A stretch of DNA of 29,423 bases from a virus, in the IMG/VR virus record IMGVR_UViG_3300006030_000022, positions 1 to 29,423 of that record; one strand, 5' to 3'. Positions 2,078-29,423 of the stretch are shown piece by piece. Both the position numbers and the translations under genes were made by a program. Under the pieces are notes generated by a model, which did no database searches, was not told the DNA's origin, and saw nothing but the letters and a program-made list of their open reading frames with translations. Every line of letters begins with the position of its first letter. The first letter of the stretch is position 1.

Positions 2078-3216
2078 TGGCCGACACATTCACGCCACCG
2101 GCTGACGTCGCAGCCAACGCGCGGCAGGCACTCGAGGTCAGGCAATCGAAGCCAGAATCGCAACGAGGGATGACCGCGGTCGGCTTGGCACGTGCTAATC
2201 AGCTAGCCAACCGCGACCCGGTCAGTCTCGAGACGGTCCGCCGGATGGTTGCCTACTTCGAGCGTCATGAGGTGGATAAGCAGGGCGCGACGTGGGACGA
2301 CCAAGGTCCCGGGTGGCAAGCGTGGCAGGGCTGGGGTGGTGACGAGGGGCGCGCGTGGGCGCGTCGCATTATGGAGGACAACATGGAAACGAAGGCATCA
2401 CGCCGGCACAGCGAGTCAGACATGGAGGCGCTTCGCACGGCAGCGCATCACACGAAACAGACGATGAAGGCGCTGCGCACCGTCGGCTACGACGGCATGC
2501 GACCGAAGAGTGTGAAAGCACTCGACGAGTCCGCCACGCTCAACGAGCGGCAGGTCGCGCTTTACGACATGTACGAGAGCATCGTCGAGGAATACGGCGT
2601 GTTCGATCGCGGCATCGGCGCGAATGGTGCGCATTACGCAGAAGCTACACAAAACCCATTCAAAGACGAAGGCATGGTCTGCAAGAACTGCGTATTCTTT
2701 CTCGCCAATCGCTGCGAAATCATCGACGGCGACATCGAAGAAGAAGCCATCTGTAAATTCTGGATTATCCCGGAGTCGCTGCTCGGCATCGAATCGGAAC
2801 CGATGGACGAAGCGCCAGCCGAGCCGATGGCAGAAGCTGAGCCGATGGACGAAGAGATGATGACCGCGGACAAAGCCATCGAAGACCGCGAGTCCACGCC
2901 GGCAGAACGTGCCGACATGCCAGCGGGTGACTTCGTCATCCCCGAGACGCGGAACTTCCCCGTGGTCACGCCGGGCGACATCCCCGCTGCGGTCTCGTCG
3001 TGGGGTCGCTACCGTGGCGACGTCACCTTCGAGGAATTTAAGCAGCGGCTCATCGCGATCGCGCAGCGCAAGGGCGAAGAGTTCGTTGCACGGCTTCCGC
3101 AAGAGTGGAAAGACGAGATGGACGCTGAAAAATCCGCAGCCCTTGACAGCACCCCGACAATGGAAACAGCAGAAGCCGCGAAGCGCTTCGCACGTCGATT
3201 GATGGGGCGCGAATGA
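2077..3216 (+). CDS. Putative structural or scaffold-like head protein with Cys cluster
   Basis: A 379-residue protein. The ATG at 2077 overlaps the upstream stop (TGATG), so I prefer it to an in-frame ATG at 1990 that would run through the previous gene. Residues 31-100 carry a recognisable phage domain (GLARANQLANR, then a Trp/Gly-rich stretch ending WGGDEGRAWARRI) seen in structural-region proteins of many siphoviruses. Around residues 202-229 there are four cysteines (CKNCVFF, NRC, ICKFW) that could bind a metal. The central part is acidic with repeated PMDE/PMAE motifs, like an intrinsically disordered scaffold segment. The end overlaps the protease-capsid start by 4 bp (ATGA). The exact function is not known to me. 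Confidence 0.75.
   Translation: MADTFTPPADVAANARQALEVRQSKPESQRGMTAVGLARANQLANRDPVSLETVRRMVAYFERHEVDKQGATWDDQGPGWQAWQGWGGDEGRAWARRIMEDNMETKASRRHSESDMEALRTAAHHTKQTMKALRTVGYDGMRPKSVKALDESATLNERQVALYDMYESIVEEYGVFDRGIGANGAHYAEATQNPFKDEGMVCKNCVFFLANRCEIIDGDIEEEAICKFWIIPESLLGIESEPMDEAPAEPMAEAEPMDEEMMTADKAIEDRESTPAERADMPAGDFVIPETRNFPVVTPGDIPAAVSSWGRYRGDVTFEEFKQRLIAIAQRKGEEFVARLPQEWKDEMDAEKSAALDSTPTMETAEAAKRFARRLMGRE
3139..3162. repeat. 24-bp exact repeat, copy 1 (inside coding sequence)
   Basis: These 24 bases are identical to 26120-26143. The core CCTTGACAGCACCCCG also appears with one change (CCTTGACAGCTCCCCG) at 4833-4848. This copy lies in frame inside the preceding head gene, about 50 bp before the capsid gene start. 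It contains TTGACA, but no -10 box follows at a usable distance. Confidence 0.8.
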
Positions 3217-5652: not shown

Positions 5653-6092
5653 GTCAGCTCACCAACATCGTGGACGCGATTGTCGGGATGAGCGTCGCAC
5701 CGGTCACGCTTGTGCTGCGTGGGTCCACGTTGAAAAACGCGGTCAACATCGCCGACGCGCCGGTGCGCATCGTGTCGGCGGTCGGTATGCAATCGACCCG
5801 CGTCAAGACAGCGACCCTCGGTGGTTCTGGTCACGTGATGACGGCAGAGTGGGCAATCAGTGACGTGGCGCTGATTCGCACCGCGGGCACTGGCTTGGGA
5901 TTGTCGGACGTTGTCAGCGATATGGAATCCTACCTCGCAGCCTACCACGACGCGGCGCGCACGTTGGTCGCACCGGCGTGGGCGGTCATCGACATTCGCT
6001 GTCGTGCCCAAATATTGGAATGGCCGCAAGCGTCAGGGCGATTCTATGACGCGGTCATTGCCACGGTATCCGTTCGCGAAATCAACCAATAG
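5649..6092 (+). CDS. Probable tail-completion or head-tail joining protein
   Basis: A 147-residue protein located exactly where siphoviruses carry the stopper or tail-terminator gene, between the gp6-like connector and the major tail protein. The sequence alternates beta-like segments (VTLVLRGSTLKNAV, MTAEWAISDVALIRT) with a helix (LSDVVSDMESYLAAYHDAA), consistent with the alpha/beta fold of tail-terminator proteins, but I recognise no diagnostic motif. It overlaps its neighbour upstream by ATGA. The assignment is mostly positional. Confidence 0.7.
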   Translation: MSQLTNIVDAIVGMSVAPVTLVLRGSTLKNAVNIADAPVRIVSAVGMQSTRVKTATLGGSGHVMTAEWAISDVALIRTAGTGLGLSDVVSDMESYLAAYHDAARTLVAPAWAVIDIRCRAQILEWPQASGRFYDAVIATVSVREINQ

Positions 6093-6101
6093 GAGCAATC
6101 A

Positions 6102-6557
6102 ATGGCACAGACAACCGCATCAATCAACGGCGCAGCGGCTACCGTGTCCCTCAAGGTGGGCGCGGGGTCCTACGTCGACATCAGCGGCAGCACGCAGAGC
6201 GTGGATGCTGCAACCGCCACGGTCATGAACAGCGAGGCGTACACCCTCGACGGTTCGGGCTCGATCGTGTACGTCGGCAAGTTTGAACCGGTCGAAGTGA
6301 CGGTCAACATCCTCTACACGGAGACTGCCGCGACCGAAGGTTTCATCCTGGTGCAGGACGCGTTTAAGAACAAGACTGCCGTGCAGCTGAAGTGGGTACC
6401 GCGTGGTGCCGCGTCCGGTGCCAACACTATCGAGACGATGGCCACGGGTTACATCACCTCGATGGACTTCCCCGCGGTGGACGCATCCTCAGCCGATGCG
6501 CTGATGGTCAGCTTCGTCGTGAAGTGTCCGGGTATCACCTACACGGAAGTCGCATAG
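6102..6557 (+). CDS. Major tail (tube) protein
   Basis: A 151-residue protein with AGGAG six bases before its ATG. The composition is rich in Ala, Thr, Ser and Val with few charges, and predicted as nearly all beta (SYVDISGSTQSVDAATA, GKFEPVEVTVNILYTE, MVSFVVKCPGITYTEV), as in siphoviral tube proteins of similar length. It is followed directly by a terminator-like structure and then by the tail chaperone genes and tape measure, the standard order. It would polymerise as stacked hexamers around the tape measure. Confidence 0.85.
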   Translation: MAQTTASINGAAATVSLKVGAGSYVDISGSTQSVDAATATVMNSEAYTLDGSGSIVYVGKFEPVEVTVNILYTETAATEGFILVQDAFKNKTAVQLKWVPRGAASGANTIETMATGYITSMDFPAVDASSADALMVSFVVKCPGITYTEVA

Positions 6558-6565
6558 TTCGGGCG

Positions 6566-6615
6566 TGCGGTCATGGTGGGGCGTGACCGCAAGCCAATCA
6601 ACAGCCCCACTTTTT
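6566..6615 (+). terminator. Terminator with an overlapping alternative hairpin after the tail tube gene
   Basis: GTGGGGC (6576-6582) pairs with GCCCCAC (6604-6610), followed by TTTTT (6611-6615), the form of an intrinsic terminator with a long loop. A second hairpin, TGCGGTCA (6566-6573) with TGACCGCA (6584-6591), has the GTGGGGC stretch inside its loop. The two can form an H-type pseudoknot or compete, so read-through could be tuned. It would lower transcription after the abundant tube protein. Confidence 0.6.
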
Positions 6616-6691
6616 CCCTACTTCGCACTGTGATGCAGGGAAATGCAGTTTCTGAGAGATCCCGCAGCACATTTTTAGGAGCATGCCCCAC

Positions 6692-12667: not shown

Positions 12668-13045
12668 ATGGCCAAAGACTACAACCGCTTCACATTCACC
12701 GGGCGGCTCGGGCGCGATCCCGAAGAGCGCCAAGCCGGCACCGGCAAGGTCGTTTCCTTCTCGGTGGCGTGCAATCGCCCGAGCAAGGGCGAGACGAAGA
12801 CCGACTGGTTCAACGTGCAATGCTGGGACAAGCTCGGCGACCTCGCGCTGACCTACCTGCACAAGGGCAGCCGCGTGCACATCGAGGGCACCGTCCAGCT
12901 GCGCGAATACAAGGACACCGGCGGAATTACCAAGACCGCGATCGACATCGTCTGTCGCGACTTTATGATGCTCGACAGCCGACCAGCGGCAACCCGTGAA
13001 GACAGCGACGGGAATGCAGTCGCTGACGAACCGCTTCCGTTCTGA
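12668..13045 (+). CDS. ssb: Single-stranded DNA-binding protein
   Basis: A 125-residue OB-fold SSB. The ATG at 12668 has AGGAG at 12656-12660. The domain is plain: NRFTFTGRLGRDPEERQAG, then VVSFSVACNR, the WFNVQCWDK core, YLHKGSRVHIEG and a final strand TAIDIVCRDFMML. The tail is short, acidic and ends DEPLPF, close to the DDDIPF tip through which bacterial SSBs recruit partner proteins. It protects single-stranded DNA during phage replication and works with the primase-helicase at 18327. It stands at the border between tail and early genes and may have its own promoter. Confidence 0.95.
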   Translation: MAKDYNRFTFTGRLGRDPEERQAGTGKVVSFSVACNRPSKGETKTDWFNVQCWDKLGDLALTYLHKGSRVHIEGTVQLREYKDTGGITKTAIDIVCRDFMMLDSRPAATREDSDGNAVADEPLPF

Positions 13046-13051
13046 TACAAT
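13023..13051 (+). promoter_or_regulatory. Predicted promoter at the SSB stop
   Basis: CTGACG (13023-13028), 17 bases, then TACAAT (13046-13051) with TG one base upstream gives a 4/6 -35 and an extended -10. The -10 overlaps the SSB stop codon. The only thing downstream before a terminator is about 70 non-coding bases. Confidence 0.5.
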
Positions 13052-13057
13052 ACGATT

Positions 13058-13127
13058 GTTCGAGGTTGGTCGCCGCGAACTCCTTTCGGCACGAAACCCG
13101 TCGCGATCGCGGCGGGTTTTGTGTGTT
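13058..13127 (+). ncRNA. Predicted short RNA between SSB and the early promoter
   Basis: A transcript from the promoter at 13023-13051 would start near 13058 and end at the terminator near 13127. It has no usable reading frame. It contains ACTCCTTTCGG (13079-13089): CTCCTTTC is the anti-Shine-Dalgarno core of 16S rRNA, and TCCTTTCG is the exact complement of CGAAAGGA, the ribosome site used by several genes of this phage. TTTCG could also pair locally with CGAAA at 13092-13096. Confidence 0.35.
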
Positions 13128-13129
13128 TT
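13094..13129 (+). terminator. Intrinsic terminator after SSB
   Basis: AAACCCGTCGC (13094-13104) pairs with GCGGCGGGTTT (13109-13119), with one G-T pair and a GATC loop, followed by TTTT and a second T-run. It separates the structural/SSB transcript from the early operon. Confidence 0.85.
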
Positions 13130-13173
13130 CAAAACTCGTCGAAAACTCGTCGAAAACTCGTTGAAAATTCGCT
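13130..13173. repeat. Four tandem 11-bp repeats with phased A-tracts
   Basis: Units of the form GAAAACTCGTC start at 13130, 13141, 13152 and 13163; the first begins with C and the fourth is degenerate. The AAAA tracts recur exactly every 11 bp, about one helical turn, and the last unit abuts the -35 box. They may bend the DNA, act like an UP element, or bind a regulator or replication initiator. Confidence 0.85.
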
Positions 13174-13201
13174 TGACAAAGTTTTTCGTATGCACTATAT
13201 T
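13173..13201 (+). promoter_or_regulatory. Strong early promoter
   Basis: TTGACA (13173-13178), a 17-base spacer and TATATT (13196-13201) form a near-consensus housekeeping promoter. It lies between a terminator and the first gene of the early operon, about 40 bases before the start at 13240. Confidence 0.9.
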
Positions 13202-13239
13202 AAGCACATAAGCAATTGACGCAACGAAAGACAACGACA

Positions 13240-13419
13240 ATGACCAACGCAATGCACATCCAAATCGCCAAGGCCGAAGCAGCTCGCATGACCACCGCTG
13301 AAGTTTTCGCCGCAATGCAGCTCTGGACCAACCGCTACGCAGAAGTCCAGAACGAACTGACCGCTGGTTTGATGATGGTGTTCGGCAACGAGTTCCGCGC
13401 TCGCATGGCTGCCAAGTAA
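13240..13419 (+). CDS. Small early protein, unknown
   Basis: A 59-residue, mostly helical protein and the first gene after the early promoter. The ATG at 13240 has CGAAAG nine bases upstream. The sequence is rich in Ala and Met (AEAARMTTAEVFAAMQLWTNRY) with no motif known to me. First position behind a strong early promoter is often held by host-takeover proteins, but nothing in the sequence shows that here. Confidence 0.75.
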   Translation: MTNAMHIQIAKAEAARMTTAEVFAAMQLWTNRYAEVQNELTAGLMMVFGNEFRARMAAK

Positions 13420-14740: not shown

Positions 14741-15083
14741 CCAACAGCTGCCCGAGGCCCTCATCACCGCGCTGAGCGACTTCCGCGAACTGGAGAGCGA
14801 ATACAAGTCGCTCGGTGGGTTCATGGATGACAAGCGCGCCATCATCCGCGCCGAGGTTGCCAAGCTCGGTGGCAAGGCGAAGCTGGACGGCGTCGCGTCG
14901 GTCTCGATCGTGCCGGCGTCTGAGTCGCACAGCTACGACACCGACGCCATCGACGACATCGTGCTCGAGCTCTACGCTGACGGCACCAAGGACGGCATCG
15001 CGATCGCACAGAAGCTCATCGACGCGCGCAAGAAAACGACCCGCAAGGAATCGCTGCGCATTACGCTCGACAAGGGGTGGTGA
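14733..15083 (+). CDS. Hypothetical early protein
   Basis: A 116-residue protein with CGAAAGGA 16-9 bases before its ATG. It begins with a long helix (LPEALITALSDFRELESEYKS) likely to form a coiled coil, followed by a compact region with repeated Asp/Ala and a basic end (KKTTRKESLRITLDKGW). This layout resembles phage helper proteins of recombination nucleases, but I cannot name a family. The stop overlaps the next start (TGATG). Confidence 0.72.
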   Translation: MPDQQLPEALITALSDFRELESEYKSLGGFMDDKRAIIRAEVAKLGGKAKLDGVASVSIVPASESHSYDTDAIDDIVLELYADGTKDGIAIAQKLIDARKKTTRKESLRITLDKGW

Positions 15084-15883
15084 TGGCGTACATGATGACC
15101 AAAGAGACCGCGCGCCGGTGGTTCCGGCGCTTGGGTCCACAGTTCAAAGCGGACTGTTTGAATCTGGACCTACCTAATATTGACGTCGCGCGTACGCATG
15201 GCGTCAGCAAACAGACCATCATGCGCATCCGTCAGGCCATGGTTCCAAAGTACAAGCCACGTATGATTGACGTCAGTGAATCAAAGATTTGGGATGCGCT
15301 CCACGCGGACATCACGCAAGCCGAGGCAGCAGCTCGAGTAGGTGTGAATCAGACGACTATCAGCCGCTACCGTCGACTACTTGGACTGAAACCACGCGTT
15401 CCGAAACCAATACGCTACGATGACTCTACTATGGCGTTGCTGCGGTCGAGTCTGGAAGATGATCACGTCGCTCGTGCGCTTGGTGTTGAGGCGTCAACGG
15501 TCAGAAAACACCGCTATGCACTGCGACCACCACGACGCGCGTATACCCCACCTGACGAGCTGGAGAAGATGACGCCGGAGATTCTTGCAGCACGATCGAC
15601 GAGGGCGGCGGCTGCCATGCTGGGCATTTCGTACAGTGCAGCAGCCATCATCCGCGCGCGTCATAAGGGCAAAAAGAAAACGCTGCCAGATGCATTTTGC
15701 ACTATCACCGACTACGCAACACTCACGGTTCAGGAAATTGCCGCCATTGTCGGCATGCCAGAAGCAAACGTCCGCTACTACCTCCGCACGCGCGGGATTA
15801 CTGCCAAAGATGGAAAGACAGGTATCACCTATGCACAGCGCAAAGCTCGTCGCGCAAACCGTGCCGACACTGCCAAGCCTTGA
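15083..15883 (+). CDS. Protein of five tandem helix-turn-helix units
   Basis: A 266-residue basic protein. The ATG at 15083 follows AAGGGG and overlaps the previous stop. It contains five units that each read as a helix-turn-helix: residues about 31-51 (VARTHGVSKQTIMRIR), 77-101 (EAAARVGVNQTTISRYRRLL), 127-147 (VARALGVEASTVRKHRYAL), 172-193 (TRAAAAMLGISYSAAAIIRA) and 214-238 (VQEIAAIVGMPEANVRYYL). It ends in an Arg/Lys-rich tail. Repeated HTH units suggest recognition of a long or repeated DNA site. It could be a phage regulator, an origin-binding protein or a transposase-derived DNA-binding module; no catalytic domain is present. Confidence 0.82.
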   Translation: MAYMMTKETARRWFRRLGPQFKADCLNLDLPNIDVARTHGVSKQTIMRIRQAMVPKYKPRMIDVSESKIWDALHADITQAEAAARVGVNQTTISRYRRLLGLKPRVPKPIRYDDSTMALLRSSLEDDHVARALGVEASTVRKHRYALRPPRRAYTPPDELEKMTPEILAARSTRAAAAMLGISYSAAAIIRARHKGKKKTLPDAFCTITDYATLTVQEIAAIVGMPEANVRYYLRTRGITAKDGKTGITYAQRKARRANRADTAKP

Positions 15884-16493
15884 CCCTGAGCAATTCATCG
15901 CCTACGTGGCGCGCGTATCAAATCCGCAAAACCAAGAGTCACACGAGACCGCTCCCCGGCTGCTGCGGTTCCTTATCAAACACAAGCACTGGAGCCCGTT
16001 TGAGATGGCGCACGTCGTGATGGAGATTACCACCACGCGCGACATCGCCCGGCAGATGCTGCGCCATCGGTCCTTCAGTTTTCAGGAGTTCTCGCAACGG
16101 TACGCCGACCCGACCGACCTCGGCTTCGCGTTCCGTGCTGCCCGGTTGCAAGACAACCGCAACCGCCAGAACAGCATCGACACGGACGACCCGCATCTGG
16201 CGGCGTGGTGGAACCAAGCACAGAACAAAATCGCTGATGCTGTCGGCGAAGTCTACGCCGAAGCAATCGGGCGCGGCATTGCCAAAGAGCAAGCACGCGC
16301 CGTACTGCCAGAGGGGATGACCGTATCGAAGCTCTATATGGCCGGCAGCGTTCGCTCGTGGTTGCACTACTGCGAGCTGCGCATGGGGCACGGCACCCAG
16401 CGCGAACACCAGCAGGTGGCACGGTCGGCGTGGGACGAGCTCATCGACGCGTTCCCAGTTCTCGCCGATTGCTTGGAGAATCCGCGTGATTGA
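15831..16493 (+). CDS. thyX: Flavin-dependent thymidylate synthase
   Basis: A 220-residue ThyX, which makes dTMP from dUMP with methylene-tetrahydrofolate, NADPH and FAD. The signature RHRx7S is present (R78-H79-R80 and S88 in RHRSFSFQEFSQRY). Other family marks are HKHWSPFEM near residue 53 and the C-terminal REHQQVARSAW. The ATG at 15831 overlaps the end of the HTH-repeat gene by 53 bp; an alternative ATG at 15810 would add seven residues. Together with dCTP deaminase at 24020 it would raise thymidine supply during replication. Confidence 0.95.
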   Translation: MHSAKLVAQTVPTLPSLDPEQFIAYVARVSNPQNQESHETAPRLLRFLIKHKHWSPFEMAHVVMEITTTRDIARQMLRHRSFSFQEFSQRYADPTDLGFAFRAARLQDNRNRQNSIDTDDPHLAAWWNQAQNKIADAVGEVYAEAIGRGIAKEQARAVLPEGMTVSKLYMAGSVRSWLHYCELRMGHGTQREHQQVARSAWDELIDAFPVLADCLENPRD

Positions 16494-17115
16494 TTACGAA
16501 CCGCAGAACCTCCGCTACACGGATGACGTCATCGCCACGCTGCAAAGCGGGTGGCCGCTCGAAAAGATAGCACGTGCGCTGCAAGTCACCATCGGCGAAG
16601 CCGAGTGGCATATCGCCGAAGTCGATGGCATGCCGCATCGGGGCGAACCTATCTGGCCAGAACCAAAGGCGACCGTTCCGAAGTATCCGACCGACCCAGA
16701 ATGGTACGCAGCCCGGACAAAAGAAGACGCAGCGAAACTGTGGGGCGTCAATGCAATCACCGCGCTGAAGTACGCCGGTGCGATCGGCATGAAGTTCAAA
16801 CGGTCACCGTCCAAGCGCGGGCGCGGTCCCAAAGACTACCCGACGGACCCTGATTGGTACCAGACGCGAACCGCTCCGGAAATCGCGGCTGAACTTGGCC
16901 TCACCACTGAAGGCGCGCGCATCCTCGCCGCTCGTTACGGAGGCCCGCTGCGGATTTACAATTACAAGTGCGACTATCCGACCGACCCCGAATGGTACAA
17001 AACACGGACCTACTGGGAGGCTGCCGCTGAGCTGGGCGCATCGATGCAAACCGTCCGCAATTACGCGTGGCGCCACAAATACGAATTCAAACCGAGTCAC
17101 GAAGTGGTAGAATAA
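16486..17115 (+). CDS. Protein of tandem YPTDPxWY / helix-turn-helix repeats
   Basis: A 209-residue protein starting at a GTG (16486) with GGAG at 16475-16478, overlapping the thyX stop. It has three clear repeats of about 46-51 residues, each opening with YPTDPEWYxxRT (residues 67, 118 and 164) and continuing with an HTH-like segment (EIAAELGLTTEGARILAARYG in the second). A fourth, divergent HTH lies at residues 20-48 (LEKIARALQVTIGEAEWHIAE). I do not know a family with this repeat. It may bind DNA repeats or act as a phage regulator, like the five-HTH protein on the other side of thyX. Confidence 0.78.
   Translation: MIDYEPQNLRYTDDVIATLQSGWPLEKIARALQVTIGEAEWHIAEVDGMPHRGEPIWPEPKATVPKYPTDPEWYAARTKEDAAKLWGVNAITALKYAGAIGMKFKRSPSKRGRGPKDYPTDPDWYQTRTAPEIAAELGLTTEGARILAARYGGPLRIYNYKCDYPTDPEWYKTRTYWEAAAELGASMQTVRNYAWRHKYEFKPSHEVVE
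17105..17113 (+). promoter_or_regulatory. Possible extended -10 promoter
   Basis: TGGTAGAAT at 17105-17113 fits an extended -10 and repeats the element before SSB. TTCAAA lies 16 bases upstream as a weak -35. It overlaps the end of the 16486 gene and faces a short non-coding stretch with a terminator. Confidence 0.4.
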
Positions 17116-17119
17116 ACAC

Positions 17120-17174
17120 GCCGAAGAGGAAAACGGCAGCAGCGCTCCGAGCAATCGGGGCGCTGTTGTTTTGT
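17120..17174 (+). ncRNA. Possible very short RNA
   Basis: Transcription from the extended -10 at 17105-17113 would give about 55 nt ending at the terminator. The 5' part can form a small hairpin, GCCG (17120-17123) with CGGC (17134-17137), presenting the purine-rich loop AAGAGGAAAA. No reading frame is present. It may equally be only the trailer of the upstream gene. Confidence 0.3.
17140..17174 (+). terminator. Intrinsic terminator
   Basis: CAGCGCTCCGA (17140-17150) pairs with TCGGGGCGCTG (17155-17165), one G-T pair, GCAA loop, followed by TTGTTTTGTT. It ends the first early operon just before the promoter at 17178. Confidence 0.85.
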
Positions 17175-17177
17175 TGA

Positions 17178-17207
17178 TTGACAAAAACAGTAATACACGT
17201 GTATGAT
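17178..17207 (+). promoter_or_regulatory. Second early promoter
   Basis: TTGACA (17178-17183), an 18-base spacer and TATGAT (17202-17207) precede the 17238 gene by about 30 bases. It follows directly on a terminator and probably drives the primase-helicase operon. Confidence 0.82.
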
Positions 17208-24036: not shown

Positions 24037-24619
24037 CCGCGAGATTACGCGTCTCGCTGCCGCCGGGATGATTACGCCGTTCGCCGAGGGTATGGACCGA
24101 CCCGGCGTCATCTCGTACGGGGTGACGTCGTTTGGTTATGACATGCGCGTGGCGGATGAGTGGGTCGAGACCGTGCTCCACAGTGACGACATCGTTGACC
24201 CAAAATATCCGCACCCGCTGACGATTCGCGATGAGAGTTTGTATTCCGATTGGCACATGAACTCTCGCGGATGGTATTCGCGCCGTCTCGAGCATTATCT
24301 GCTCAAACCCGGCGGCTTCGTCCTCTGCCGCTCCGTCGAAACCTTCGCCATTCCCGAGGACGTCGTCGGGATCGTCGTTGGGAAGTCCACCTACGCGCGC
24401 TGTGGTCTCATCGTGAACTGCACGCCGATGGAGCCGGGCTGGTCGGGTGAACTGACCATCGAGCTGCACAACGCGTCGCAGCACGCCATCAAGGTCTACG
24501 CGAACGAGGGAATCGCGCAAGTGATGTTCTTCCGTGGCGAGCGACCAGCCGTGACGTACGCCGACAAGCACGGCAAGTATCAGGGGCAGACGGGTGTGAC
24601 GCTGCCGAGGGTGAAGTGA
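24020..24619 (+). CDS. dcd: dCTP deaminase
   Basis: A 199-residue dCTP deaminase, which converts dCTP to dUTP and so feeds thymidylate synthesis by ThyX. Family motifs are GVTSFGYDMRV near residue 34 and the long core GKSTYARCGLIVNCTPMEPG followed by WSGELTIELHN, where the Glu of GELTIE is the expected catalytic base. GGGGGA lies just before tandem ATGs at 24020 and 24023; I use the first. A deaminase needs a dUTPase for the next step, and none is evident here, so a bifunctional enzyme or a host dUTPase is possible. The stop overlaps the methyltransferase start. Confidence 0.93.
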   Translation: MMILNDREITRLAAAGMITPFAEGMDRPGVISYGVTSFGYDMRVADEWVETVLHSDDIVDPKYPHPLTIRDESLYSDWHMNSRGWYSRRLEHYLLKPGGFVLCRSVETFAIPEDVVGIVVGKSTYARCGLIVNCTPMEPGWSGELTIELHNASQHAIKVYANEGIAQVMFFRGERPAVTYADKHGKYQGQTGVTLPRVK

Positions 24620-25428
24620 TGCGATACGAATTGCACCTCGGCGATTGCCGCGACGTCATGGCGACGCTACCCGCTGAATCGGTTGACGCCATCGTCTGCG
24701 ATCCTCCGTACGGGCTGTCGTTCATGGGCAAAGGGTGGGACCACGGCGTTCCCGGTGTTGACTTTTGGGTAGAGGCGTTGCGCGTGTTGAAACCGGGCGG
24801 ACACCTGATTGCGTTCGGTGGCACACGGACGTATCACCGGTTGGCGGTGGCGATCGAGGACGCTGGCTTCGAGGTGCGCGACTGTTTGATGTATCTCTAT
24901 GGCTCGGGATTCCCGAAATCGCTGGACGTATCGAAGGCAATGGATAAACAGGCGGGAGCGGAGCGAAAAAAACGATGGAAAGCTGTTACGCCACACGGAA
25001 TGACCGGAGCGTTAGAACATCGTCCGTGGATTGAACGTGCGCAACGTGACGGCGGTATTTTTGTAGACGGCGAGGAGCCATCCACCGACCTCGCAAAGCA
25101 GTGGCAGGGCTGGGGCACCGCGCTCAAGCCAGCCGTTGAGCCCGCCATCCTCGCGCGCAAGCCGCTGACGGGGACGGTGGCAGACAACGTGGCGCAGTGG
25201 GGCACGGGCGCGCTGAACATCGACGGGTGCAGGGTGGGAACGTCAAGACCAGAAACGTCGTTGCACGCATTTACCGCATTACGAAGAATGGAAAATCGTA
25301 CAGACCTACAAACACCAACCGCAGATAATCGCACGGATGTTGGCCGCTGGCCCGCGAACCTCATCCTCGACGAAGACGCAGCGGCGGCGCTGGATGCGCA
25401 GAGCGGCGGCGCGTCTCGATTTTTCTAA
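24619..25428 (+). CDS. DNA methyltransferase, N-terminal part (interrupted by TAA)
   Basis: A 269-residue fragment of a DNA adenine/N4-cytosine methyltransferase. The ATG at 24619 overlaps the dcd stop. Residues 26-33 (IVCDPPYG) hold the catalytic DPPY motif, followed by VLKPGGHLIAFGG and the target-recognition region. The chain stops at TAA (25426-25428) right after GGASRFF. Homologues continue here with FFYxAKASxxER, and the same frame does go on as TAKASRSEREAGLEGM, so a single Tyr-to-stop change (TAC to TAA) seems to have cut the gene. The SAM-binding motif lies beyond the stop, so this half alone should be inactive. Confidence 0.85.
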   Translation: MRYELHLGDCRDVMATLPAESVDAIVCDPPYGLSFMGKGWDHGVPGVDFWVEALRVLKPGGHLIAFGGTRTYHRLAVAIEDAGFEVRDCLMYLYGSGFPKSLDVSKAMDKQAGAERKKRWKAVTPHGMTGALEHRPWIERAQRDGGIFVDGEEPSTDLAKQWQGWGTALKPAVEPAILARKPLTGTVADNVAQWGTGALNIDGCRVGTSRPETSLHAFTALRRMENRTDLQTPTADNRTDVGRWPANLILDEDAAAALDAQSGGASRFF

Positions 25429-25473
25429 ACGGCTAAGGCGTCGCGATCGGAGCGCGAAGCGGGGCTGGAGGGG

Positions 25474-25779
25474 ATGGAGAAAATCAAAGCGGGCGCGATG
25501 ACCGGGGCAGAATACCGCGAAGACCGACCGACGAATCACCCAATGCGCGCCAATCATCACCCGACGGTGAAGCCCATCGACCTCATGCGCTACATGATCC
25601 GCCTCGTCGCACCGCGTGGCGCCGTCGTGCTTGACCCGTTCATGGGCAGCGGCTCCACGGGCTGCGGTGCCATGCTCGAGGGGATGCGCTTTATCGGCAT
25701 CGACATCACGCCGGAGTACGTGGAGATTGCACGGCGCAGGATCGCGCACCACGCAGCGCAGGGAACGCTTGAGATTTGA
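25474..25779 (+). CDS. DNA methyltransferase, C-terminal part
   Basis: The second half of the same methyltransferase, in the same frame as 24619-25428. It is open from 25429 on; the first ATG is at 25474, where GGAGGGG sits directly against it, so reinitiation would be poor. It contains NHPTVKP-like HHPTVKPIDLMRYMIRL and the SAM-binding loop DPFMGSGSTGCGA, then GIDITPEYVEIARRRI. Activity would require stop-codon read-through or joining of two separately made halves. The stop codon overlaps the -35 of the first small-RNA promoter. Confidence 0.75.
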   Translation: MEKIKAGAMTGAEYREDRPTNHPMRANHHPTVKPIDLMRYMIRLVAPRGAVVLDPFMGSGSTGCGAMLEGMRFIGIDITPEYVEIARRRIAHHAAQGTLEI

Positions 25780-25804
25780 CCGCAGCCACGCGGTGCGGTA
25801 TCAT
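25776..25804 (+). promoter_or_regulatory. Array promoter P1
   Basis: TTGACC (25776-25781), 17 bases, TATCAT (25799-25804). The -35 overlaps the methyltransferase stop. It shares TTTGAC...GTATCATGA with P2 and P3. Confidence 0.8.
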
Positions 25805-25810
25805 GACCGA

Positions 25811-25881
25811 GACGCGCCAAGAAGCATCTACCGCAATTAGTTGCAACGCGTCACCACTCCCGGTTTCTGGATTGACGTTTT
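25811..25881 (+). ncRNA. Predicted small RNA 1
   Basis: About 71 nt from the expected start of P1 to its terminator. It holds a small hairpin, GCAA (25833-25836) with TTGC (25841-25844), before the terminator stem. No reading frame with a ribosome site is visible. Confidence 0.55.
25849..25881 (+). terminator. Terminator of unit 1
   Basis: CGTCACCA (25849-25856) pairs with TGG (25868-25870) and TGACG (25873-25877), with a 2-base bulge, followed by TTTT. It is the weakest of the three terminators. Confidence 0.5.
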
Positions 25882-25901
25882 CCGACGGATGGGTCTTCTG
25901 T

Positions 25902-25930
25902 TTGACACGCAATCGCGCGCGTCGTATCAT
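25902..25930 (+). promoter_or_regulatory. Array promoter P2
   Basis: TTGACA (25902-25907), 17 bases, TATCAT (25925-25930); a near-consensus housekeeping promoter 126 bp after P1. Confidence 0.88.
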
Positions 25931-25936
25931 GATGGG

Positions 25937-26018
25937 GCTGGCGTGGATTCAGTCCCTGCGTCAGCGCCATCCAGAAGATGACGGACCGCCACCCACGCCA
26001 TCGGGTGGCGTTTCGTTT
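25937..26018 (+). ncRNA. Predicted small RNA 2
   Basis: About 80 nt from P2 to a terminator whose T-stretch runs into the -35 box of P3. The body can pair TGGCG (25939-25943) with CGCCA (25965-25969). No protein-coding signal is seen. Confidence 0.6.
25987..26018 (+). terminator. Terminator of unit 2
   Basis: CGCCACCC (25987-25994) pairs perfectly with GGGTGGCG (26003-26010) across an 8-base loop, followed by TTTCGTTT. Confidence 0.85.
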
Positions 26019-26045
26019 GACACGCGGCAGCGGTCGCGGTATCAT
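26017..26045 (+). promoter_or_regulatory. Array promoter P3
   Basis: TTGACA (26017-26022), 17 bases, TATCAT (26040-26045), 115 bp after P2. Its -35 begins within the end of the unit 2 terminator. Confidence 0.88.
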
Positions 26046-26051
26046 GACGCC

Positions 26052-26116
26052 ATTGACACCTTGTGCGGACATTGTGCCATCGATGAAACCACCCTCCATC
26101 TCCGGGGTGGTTTTTT
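26052..26116 (+). ncRNA. Predicted small RNA 3
   Basis: About 65 nt from P3 to a strong terminator. It is unrelated in sequence to small RNAs 1 and 2 apart from the CCACCC/GGGTGG terminator stem shared with unit 2. Confidence 0.6.
26086..26116 (+). terminator. Terminator of unit 3
   Basis: AAACCACCC (26086-26094) pairs with GGGTGGTTT (26105-26113) and runs into TTTTTT (26111-26116). It is the clearest intrinsic terminator in the genome. Confidence 0.92.
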
Positions 26117-26119
26117 CGT

Positions 26120-26143
26120 GCCCTTGACAGCACCCCGACAATG
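26120..26143. repeat. 24-bp exact repeat, copy 2
   Basis: Identical to 3139-3162. Here it lies between the unit 3 terminator and the ribosome site of the 26159 gene. It contains TTGACA but no fitting -10. Confidence 0.8.
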
Positions 26144-26158
26144 AACGCAGGAGGCAAC

Positions 26159-26488
26159 ATGACGACACCAGCAGCACCAATCCCCAACCCGTGCGAATTG
26201 CAGATTCCCGGCGGCACCTACACAGCAACGCTGACCTTCGTGCAGGTGGACCGCCTCGGCCAGTGGTTCGCCACGTCGATGGGCTCGTACGGGATTCTCT
26301 CCCGAAAGTTTGCTATTCATCTTTGGTACCGAAAAAGCCTGACGGACCCGTGGCAGCTCATCCAGTACTACGAGGACGCGCACGGCAGTATTCAGGTCAT
26401 CGGTAACGAACTCTACTTCGTGGTGAACCGCAAGAACGGCACCACGTTTATGAACAAGATTCAGCGATGGGCAGGAGTGCGTCAGTGA
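26159..26488 (+). CDS. Hypothetical protein upstream of the amidase
   Basis: A 109-residue protein; the ATG at 26159 has AGGAGG (26149-26154) four bases away, better than an upstream ATG at 26141. After a Pro-rich start it is predicted beta-rich (GGTYTATLTFVQVDRLGQWF, WYRKSLTDPWQLIQYY, IQVIGNELYFVVNRKNG), as in small carbohydrate- or surface-binding domains. No family recognised. It overlaps the amidase by 4 bp, so a lysis or virion role is possible. Confidence 0.72.
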   Translation: MTTPAAPIPNPCELQIPGGTYTATLTFVQVDRLGQWFATSMGSYGILSRKFAIHLWYRKSLTDPWQLIQYYEDAHGSIQVIGNELYFVVNRKNGTTFMNKIQRWAGVRQ

Positions 26489-28925: not shown

Positions 28926-29423
28926 TGCCGATTCAATACCCGCAGGGGTGGCTTGACGCGCTGAACCGATCGGGGAAATTAACGACCCCGGCGGACGCGT
29001 ATCGTCAGGTGCCGATGTTGTACCGCGCGGTCAATCTCCGGGCCGAGGCGCTGTCAAGCGTGCCGACCGTGTTGACCCGCAATGGCGAGGAAATCGCGTG
29101 GCCGTGGTCGTCGCAGCTCGCGCGACTCATCGCCGACACCGAGCGTAGTCTCTTGGTCTTCGGTGCCGCGTATTGGCTCAAGGTCGTCAAGGGTCGAACG
29201 ATGACGGGCTTCGTCTGTCTGAATCCCGCCGGCGTGTCGTGGCAATACTTGCCCGAAGAGTCGGCAATCACTGACCCGTACAGCGGGCTGCGATTCACCG
29301 CGACGATTGGCGGCAAGCTCTACGGACCGTGGACAACCGAGCAGATTGTCTACTTCCGCGAACCATCGTTCTTGGACGACTACGGACCCGGGACGGCACC
29401 GGCAGCAGTCGCATTGCAGCACG
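28925..29423 (+). CDS. Portal protein (5' part, continues at position 1)
   Basis: This is the N-terminal segment of the portal-MuF fusion. The ATG at 28925 overlaps the terminase stop codon (TGATG), a typical translational coupling, and the frame is open to the end of the window. Position 29334 matches window position 1, and the reading frame continues from there to the stop at 1614-1616. Residues near the start (QYPQGWLDAL, then VPMLYRAVNLRAEALSSVP) match the usual beginning of HK97-type portals, where the conserved stretch around 'aV.lrA.a.a..P' precedes the wing domain. Position right after the large terminase gene is the standard packaging order. Confidence 0.92.
   Translation, partial: MPIQYPQGWLDALNRSGKLTTPADAYRQVPMLYRAVNLRAEALSSVPTVLTRNGEEIAWPWSSQLARLIADTERSLLVFGAAYWLKVVKGRTMTGFVCLNPAGVSWQYLPEESAITDPYSGLRFTATIGGKLYGPWTTEQIVYFREPSFLDDYGPGTAPAAVALQH
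29334..29423. repeat. Terminal direct repeat, right copy
   Basis: This is the right copy of the 90-bp exact repeat, identical to bases 1-90. It marks the point at which the circle closes. Confidence 0.95.

Follow-up and report, generated by a model that had tools for sequence, protein, structure and literature searches.

The window, by which we mean the whole stretch of DNA analysed here, is an entire virus record of 29,423 bases. Its first and last 90 bp (1–90 and 29334–29423) are identical, so that we are probably dealing with a phage genome that is circular or complete. The genes identified include those for a large terminase, an Amidase_2 protein, an SSB, a primase, a dCTP deaminase, a thymidylate-synthase-family protein and a DNA methylase. 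A cultured near relative is absent, the best terminase identity among 50,697 phage records being below 60%. With the terminase, only remote relatives were found, all in MAGs (Pyrinomonadaceae, a Thermoprotei MAG and Chloroflexota), and these do not suffice to name the host; that the source is freshwater is our guess, based on the metagenomes in which the relatives occur. The phage encodes two proteins built from repeated helix-turn-helix (HTH) segments (15077–15883 and 16486–17115), one of which is weakly similar to a T5 D5-like transcription regulator. Two of its intergenic regions, 13087–13201 and 17132–17207, hold a very stable hairpin with a T-rich tail (to 13125 and 17173, respectively) followed by a near-consensus promoter (13173 and 17178).

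The locus of interest is the gap of 361 bp (25780–26140) that follows the methylase gene (Table 1). It stands where the early/middle genes, including those for dCTP deaminase and methylase, give way to the late genes for lysis and packaging, and contains an array of three promoters pointing downstream. The first gene after the array is followed by the Amidase_2 lysis gene. On the upstream side, the final TGA stop of the methylase falls inside the TTTGAC of the first promoter. The methylase gene also has an in-frame TAA at 25426–25428 (translation RFF*TAKASRSERE), where relatives have a Tyr codon, and its C-terminal part can restart at 25474; the gene may be disrupted or split, or the TAA may be a sequence error.

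Table 1. Features of the array and its flanking genes (positions in the window).
Feature	Position	Strand	Basis or remark
DNA methyltransferase gene, upstream of the array	24616–25779	+	PHROG matches
Promoter P1, TTGACC-N17-TATCAT, then GA	25776–25804	+	Pattern match
Unit 1 body, expected start ~25811	25811–25900	+	Without supported terminator
Promoter P2, TTGACA-N17-TATCAT, then GA	25902–25930	+	Pattern match
Predicted small RNA 2, ~80 nt	25937–26018	+	MFE -40.9 kcal/mol, z -4.3
Terminator T2, CGCCACCC-8-GGGTGGCG, then TTTCGTTT	25987–26018 (hairpin 25987–26010)	+	Fold and terminator scan
Promoter P3, TTGACA-N17-TATCAT, then GA	26017–26045	+	Pattern match
Predicted small RNA 3, ~65 nt	26052 to about 26117	+	MFE -24.9 kcal/mol, z -3.4
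Terminator T3, AAACCACCCT-8-GGGGTGGTTT plus T-run	26086–26115	+	Fold and terminator scan
Motif CTTGACA-N7-GACAATGAA, putative late promoter or operator	26123–26145	+	Kept in array-less relatives
First gene after the array, function not assigned, conserved in relatives	26141–26488	+	

As predicted from the sequence, P1–P3 agree with the promoter consensus at 10–11 of 12 positions, each with 17-bp spacing, and follow one another at intervals of 126 bp (P1–P2) and 115 bp (P2–P3). The pattern TTGACN-N17-TATCATGA has exactly three exact matches in the 29.4-kb record, all in the post-methylase gap, and the entire plus strand holds four sites of such quality with 17-bp spacing, three of them inside the gap. 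Exact dinucleotide shuffles of 25771–26140 (n = 20,000) gave 22 such promoters in all (mean 0.0011) and never two in one shuffle. When the units are compared, the promoter segments align with each other, spacers included (p ≤0.002), and the bodies align no better than shuffles (p 0.46–0.88). The preliminary description of this DNA, which had proposed three promoters of the same form at these intervals and bodies that differ while the promoters are conserved, is thus borne out by the pattern match, the shuffles and the alignments. The likeness of the promoter segments implies a common history of P1–P3, and the fact that the 17-bp spacing is kept despite change in the spacer sequences suggests that it is under selection.

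The same description had placed a hairpin with a T-stretch after each promoter, and here the units part ways. Folding and terminator scans agree on T2, with a G+C-rich stem of 8 bp and an interrupted U-tract, and on T3, with a stem of 10 bp, located between P3 and the gene at 26141; the hairpin/tail scores of both were exceeded in 0 of 20 shuffles. The tail of T2, TTTCGTTT, overlaps the -35 element of P3, so that the terminator of unit 2 runs into the third promoter as had been claimed. Predicted RNA 2 consists of a 5´ hairpin starting exactly at the expected +1, a short linker and the terminator hairpin, and predicted RNA 3 of some 30 nt with little structure at the 5´ end plus its terminator hairpin; for neither was an equally stable fold seen in 200 shuffles. 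For unit 1 the claim did not hold. Terminator scans found none near 25881, the segment 25850–25900 is less stable on folding than most of its shuffles (z +1.4) and the tail of the putative hairpin is a mixed TCTTCTGTTT. Two of the three units are therefore complete. With no terminator before P2, a transcript from P1 would be expected to continue to T2 and may end at about 26013.

The gap does not look like a gene. In its longest frame, GC by codon position is 0.58/0.59/0.59, compared with 0.58/0.46/0.71 on average for the phage genes, and the codon log-odds of its six frames range from -0.25 to +0.03, compared with +0.08 to +0.45 in short yardstick genes. It had earlier been called a non-coding gap of 380 bp, and these values uphold the non-coding view. 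A frame of 122 aa (25776–26144) was considered as a gene and rejected, its codon-position GC being flat, its codon score not clearly positive and PHROG and Pfam giving no match. An array of tRNAs with individual promoters was also rejected, as ARAGORN finds no tRNA in the gap. An Rfam search of the gap gave nothing at gathering score; a weak match to RNAI at 26012–26119, which reached 18.8 bits where the cut-off is 47, was taken as chance. Neither strand of the gap holds a small hydrophobic ORF of at least 20 aa.

One could imagine that the repeats themselves are the functional part, as binding sites or promoter decoys that sequester host RNA polymerase or a phage regulator, with the RNAs irrelevant. 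The conserved part is indeed the promoter with its spacer, the bodies are dissimilar and the phage encodes the two multi-HTH proteins. However, strong terminators after P2 and P3 would be unnecessary for such a role, three sites are few for titration, and the similarity of the spacers is equally expected from recent duplication. We consider this reading unlikely.

Comparison with related phages places the array in context. Relatives were gathered on the basis of the gene at 26141, the amidase and the terminase, and about 36 were examined at the locus. No comparable promoter array was present within 450 bp upstream in any of them, so that the conservation of the architecture among related phages, raised earlier as a check, was sought and not found. 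Instead, the gene that precedes this site, be it a methylase, a dCTP deaminase or another, abuts or overlaps a conserved motif, which is followed by the homologue of the gene at 26141; a more distant group (L048–L054) is without both motif and array. In methylase-bearing relatives, the C-terminus of the methylase reads through the motif (e.g., ...SCQLDGNAIMNAEEDEA in L011), compared with which the methylase of the window ends early. Across the phage group, 31 distinct instances of the motif, CTTGAC[A/G]-N7-GA[C/T]AAT, were counted, always with a spacer of 7 bp, roughly one helical turn less than 17, and its copies precede the lysis-side gene and the capsid gene. The window has it in both places: one copy stands directly after T3 and a second, at 3142–3164, just before the capsid gene (two copies are also found in L058, L060 and L073). 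We read the N7 motif as a putative late promoter or operator of the group, of an unusual kind, and the multi-HTH proteins are candidate regulators of the copy at 26123.

Since the relatives do not have it, the array can be regarded as an accessory, moron-like insert, set at the junction of early/middle and late genes. Searches for homologues elsewhere were negative: an exact double-promoter pattern gave 4 viral matches, none homologous, tighter single-promoter patterns gave 0 matches, genomes gave 0 matches, and blastn against phages and plasmids gave nothing meaningful. The TTGAC starts at 25776, 25902, 26017 and 26124 form one series, the last of them belonging to the motif. Together with the position of the array where relatives carry the motif, this series suggests that the array grew by duplication at that position.

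The same series, at the place where relatives carry the motif, would also be seen if a promoter segment with TTGAC had been copied again and again at that motif and had left a non-functional filler, and a unit 1 whose terminator is already lost, or was never present, agrees with such a relic. Yet the exact 17-bp spacing in all three promoters despite differing spacers and bodies argues for promoter selection, and two strong terminators persist. The probability of the array being mere debris of this kind appears low.

The main rival to a role for the RNAs is a boundary element or attenuated leader, in which T2 and T3 keep early/middle transcription from entering the late genes and the short RNAs arise as by-products. 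A stronger version of this model has the promoters always on, with the late genes fed only once a phage antiterminator has let polymerase through the terminators. The 6S RNA leader of lambda (pR´-tR´) is organized in this way, with a strong host-type promoter and a short terminated RNA just before the lysis/late genes. The array is positioned as such an element should be, exactly at the junction of the dCTP deaminase/methylase and lysis/packaging genes and pointing downstream, and the phage has other terminator-promoter junctions (13125 to P13173 and 17173 to P17178). However, relatives with the same gene order and motif do without the array, which weakens the case; they have kept only the CTTGACA-N7-GAYAAT motif, and the window retains it as well, downstream of T3. 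The lambda pR´-tR´ is a single unit that is needed for the late switch, whereas the array has several units and is absent in relatives, which lack promoter and terminator, so that a conserved late-switch part of the lambda type is not seen at the locus. One promoter and one terminator would also do for a boundary, leaving three unrelated bodies unexplained, and a Q-like antiterminator protein was not identified in the phage. A boundary or leader function is possible, but we rate its probability well short of even.

The interpretation that we favour, at about even chances, is that the array is a compact accessory cassette of small RNAs driven by the host polymerase. The three related promoters would be recognised by the housekeeping RNA polymerase of the host (sigma70/SigA type), and at least two short non-coding RNAs would be made, of ~80 nt from unit 2 and ~65 nt from unit 3, with a third, from P1, that probably continues and ends at T2. 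The promoters would have arisen via duplication and would drive unrelated bodies, the tail of T2 doubling as part of the next -35 element. The promoters are near consensus and should work without a phage factor, so that the RNAs would be expected from the start of infection. For units 2 and 3, where the bodies are unrelated, the promoters similar, the terminators strong and a coding signal absent, the original proposal of distinct short RNAs made from similar promoters remains the best reading; for unit 1 it is weak. The most likely action of the RNAs would be in trans, on RNAs of the host or of competing phages or on RNA-binding proteins, rather than on the phage's own mRNAs. Transcription, discrete RNAs and trans action are all inferred, and the trans action is a guess. 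In a search of the phage's own mRNAs for targets, the longest complements of the three bodies were 9, 13 and 9 nt, not clearly above shuffles, the 13-nt complement of unit 2 being equalled by 8% of them. That no phage target emerged leans weakly to host targets. A more elaborate scheme, which we regard as rather improbable, is an expandable cassette at the late-promoter motif, in which each duplicated promoter captures another short RNA body and the phage carries a swappable set that counters host RNA regulation or defence. In this scheme the array may have been built by expansion of the N7 motif into housekeeping promoters, the 17-bp spacer corresponding to 7 bp plus about one helical turn.

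Judged by position, the nearest studied parallel would be found in lambdoid prophages, whose moron site near PR´ holds short anti-sRNA genes (AgvB/EcOnc01, AsxR/EcOnc02 and EcOnc03; PMC4104026). In both cases several genes for short RNAs share one accessory insert, which lies where early and late genes meet and precedes a conserved phage ORF. The lambdoid RNAs are 51–60 nt long, bind Hfq, have a conserved 3´ region of ~42 nt and occur as convergent pairs (PMC4104026), whereas the predicted RNAs of the array are tandem and codirectional, ~65–80 nt long and without a common body sequence. A common 3´ region of about 42 nt of the AgvB/AsxR type was not found, the bodies being alike only at chance level and without an Rfam match. 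As the array RNAs are neither convergent nor provided with such a region, we do not claim membership of the lambdoid anti-sRNAs. A second parallel is the lytic phage PAK_P3, for which neighbouring intergenic late-phase RNAs, sRNA1 and sRNA2, are described that are discrete and ~100 nt long (PMC4933390). A repeated promoter/terminator unit does not figure in the excerpted account (PMC4933390). Small RNAs of lytic phages are little known, the same paper counting only RNAs C and D of T4 before its own (PMC4933390). A 360-bp insert of tandem units at a defined accessory site offers exact predicted 5´ and 3´ ends.

In the titles and abstracts of the phage sRNA literature, we found no description of a tandem promoter-RNA-terminator array. 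The preliminary description likewise knew of no such family in small siphoviruses; the architecture is not unique and recurs in a few unrelated phage contigs. Within the viral collection, 35 stretches have three near-consensus promoters in tandem; the majority are tRNA arrays or other series of promoters that lack terminators. With a strict pattern of promoter, body, T-run and second promoter, 38 stretches were returned, and 5 of these pass a hairpin test (L109, L139, L140, L154 and L158). Promoter-RNA-terminator-promoter modules recur in the unrelated IMG/VR contigs L006, L109, L081, L139, L140 and L154. Like the array, they have a near-consensus promoter and a hairpin with a T-run near the next -35 element, with a body of 50–75 nt; they differ in having no sequence similarity to it and in coming mostly from AT-rich phages. 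The clearest analogue is L109, where 12740–13250 (minus strand) holds a series of about five units, each terminator abutting the next -35 element, and a gene cluster follows downstream. Two complete units are present in L081. The tandem layout is therefore recurrent but rare and probably convergent. The array and these modules suggest a compact way to carry several RNAs in little DNA.

The temperate phage contig L006 has four promoter-RNA-terminator units at 5700–6640 (minus strand), between repressor-like and integrase-like genes, and two hydrophobic ORFs of 27–29 aa that end in KWLDG and are weakly like a C. difficile type I toxin model. The array of L006 is a probable type I toxin-antitoxin cluster. 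Its architecture is that of our array, which would allow the RNAs of the window to be read as type I antitoxins as well; but tiny toxin-like ORFs are linked to the array in L006 and lacking from both strands of the window's gap at the length cited above, and we hold this explanation to be highly improbable. A further arrangement was observed in L077, L084, L087, L088, L093, L099 and L101, where tRNA-like genes each apparently have their own near-consensus promoter.
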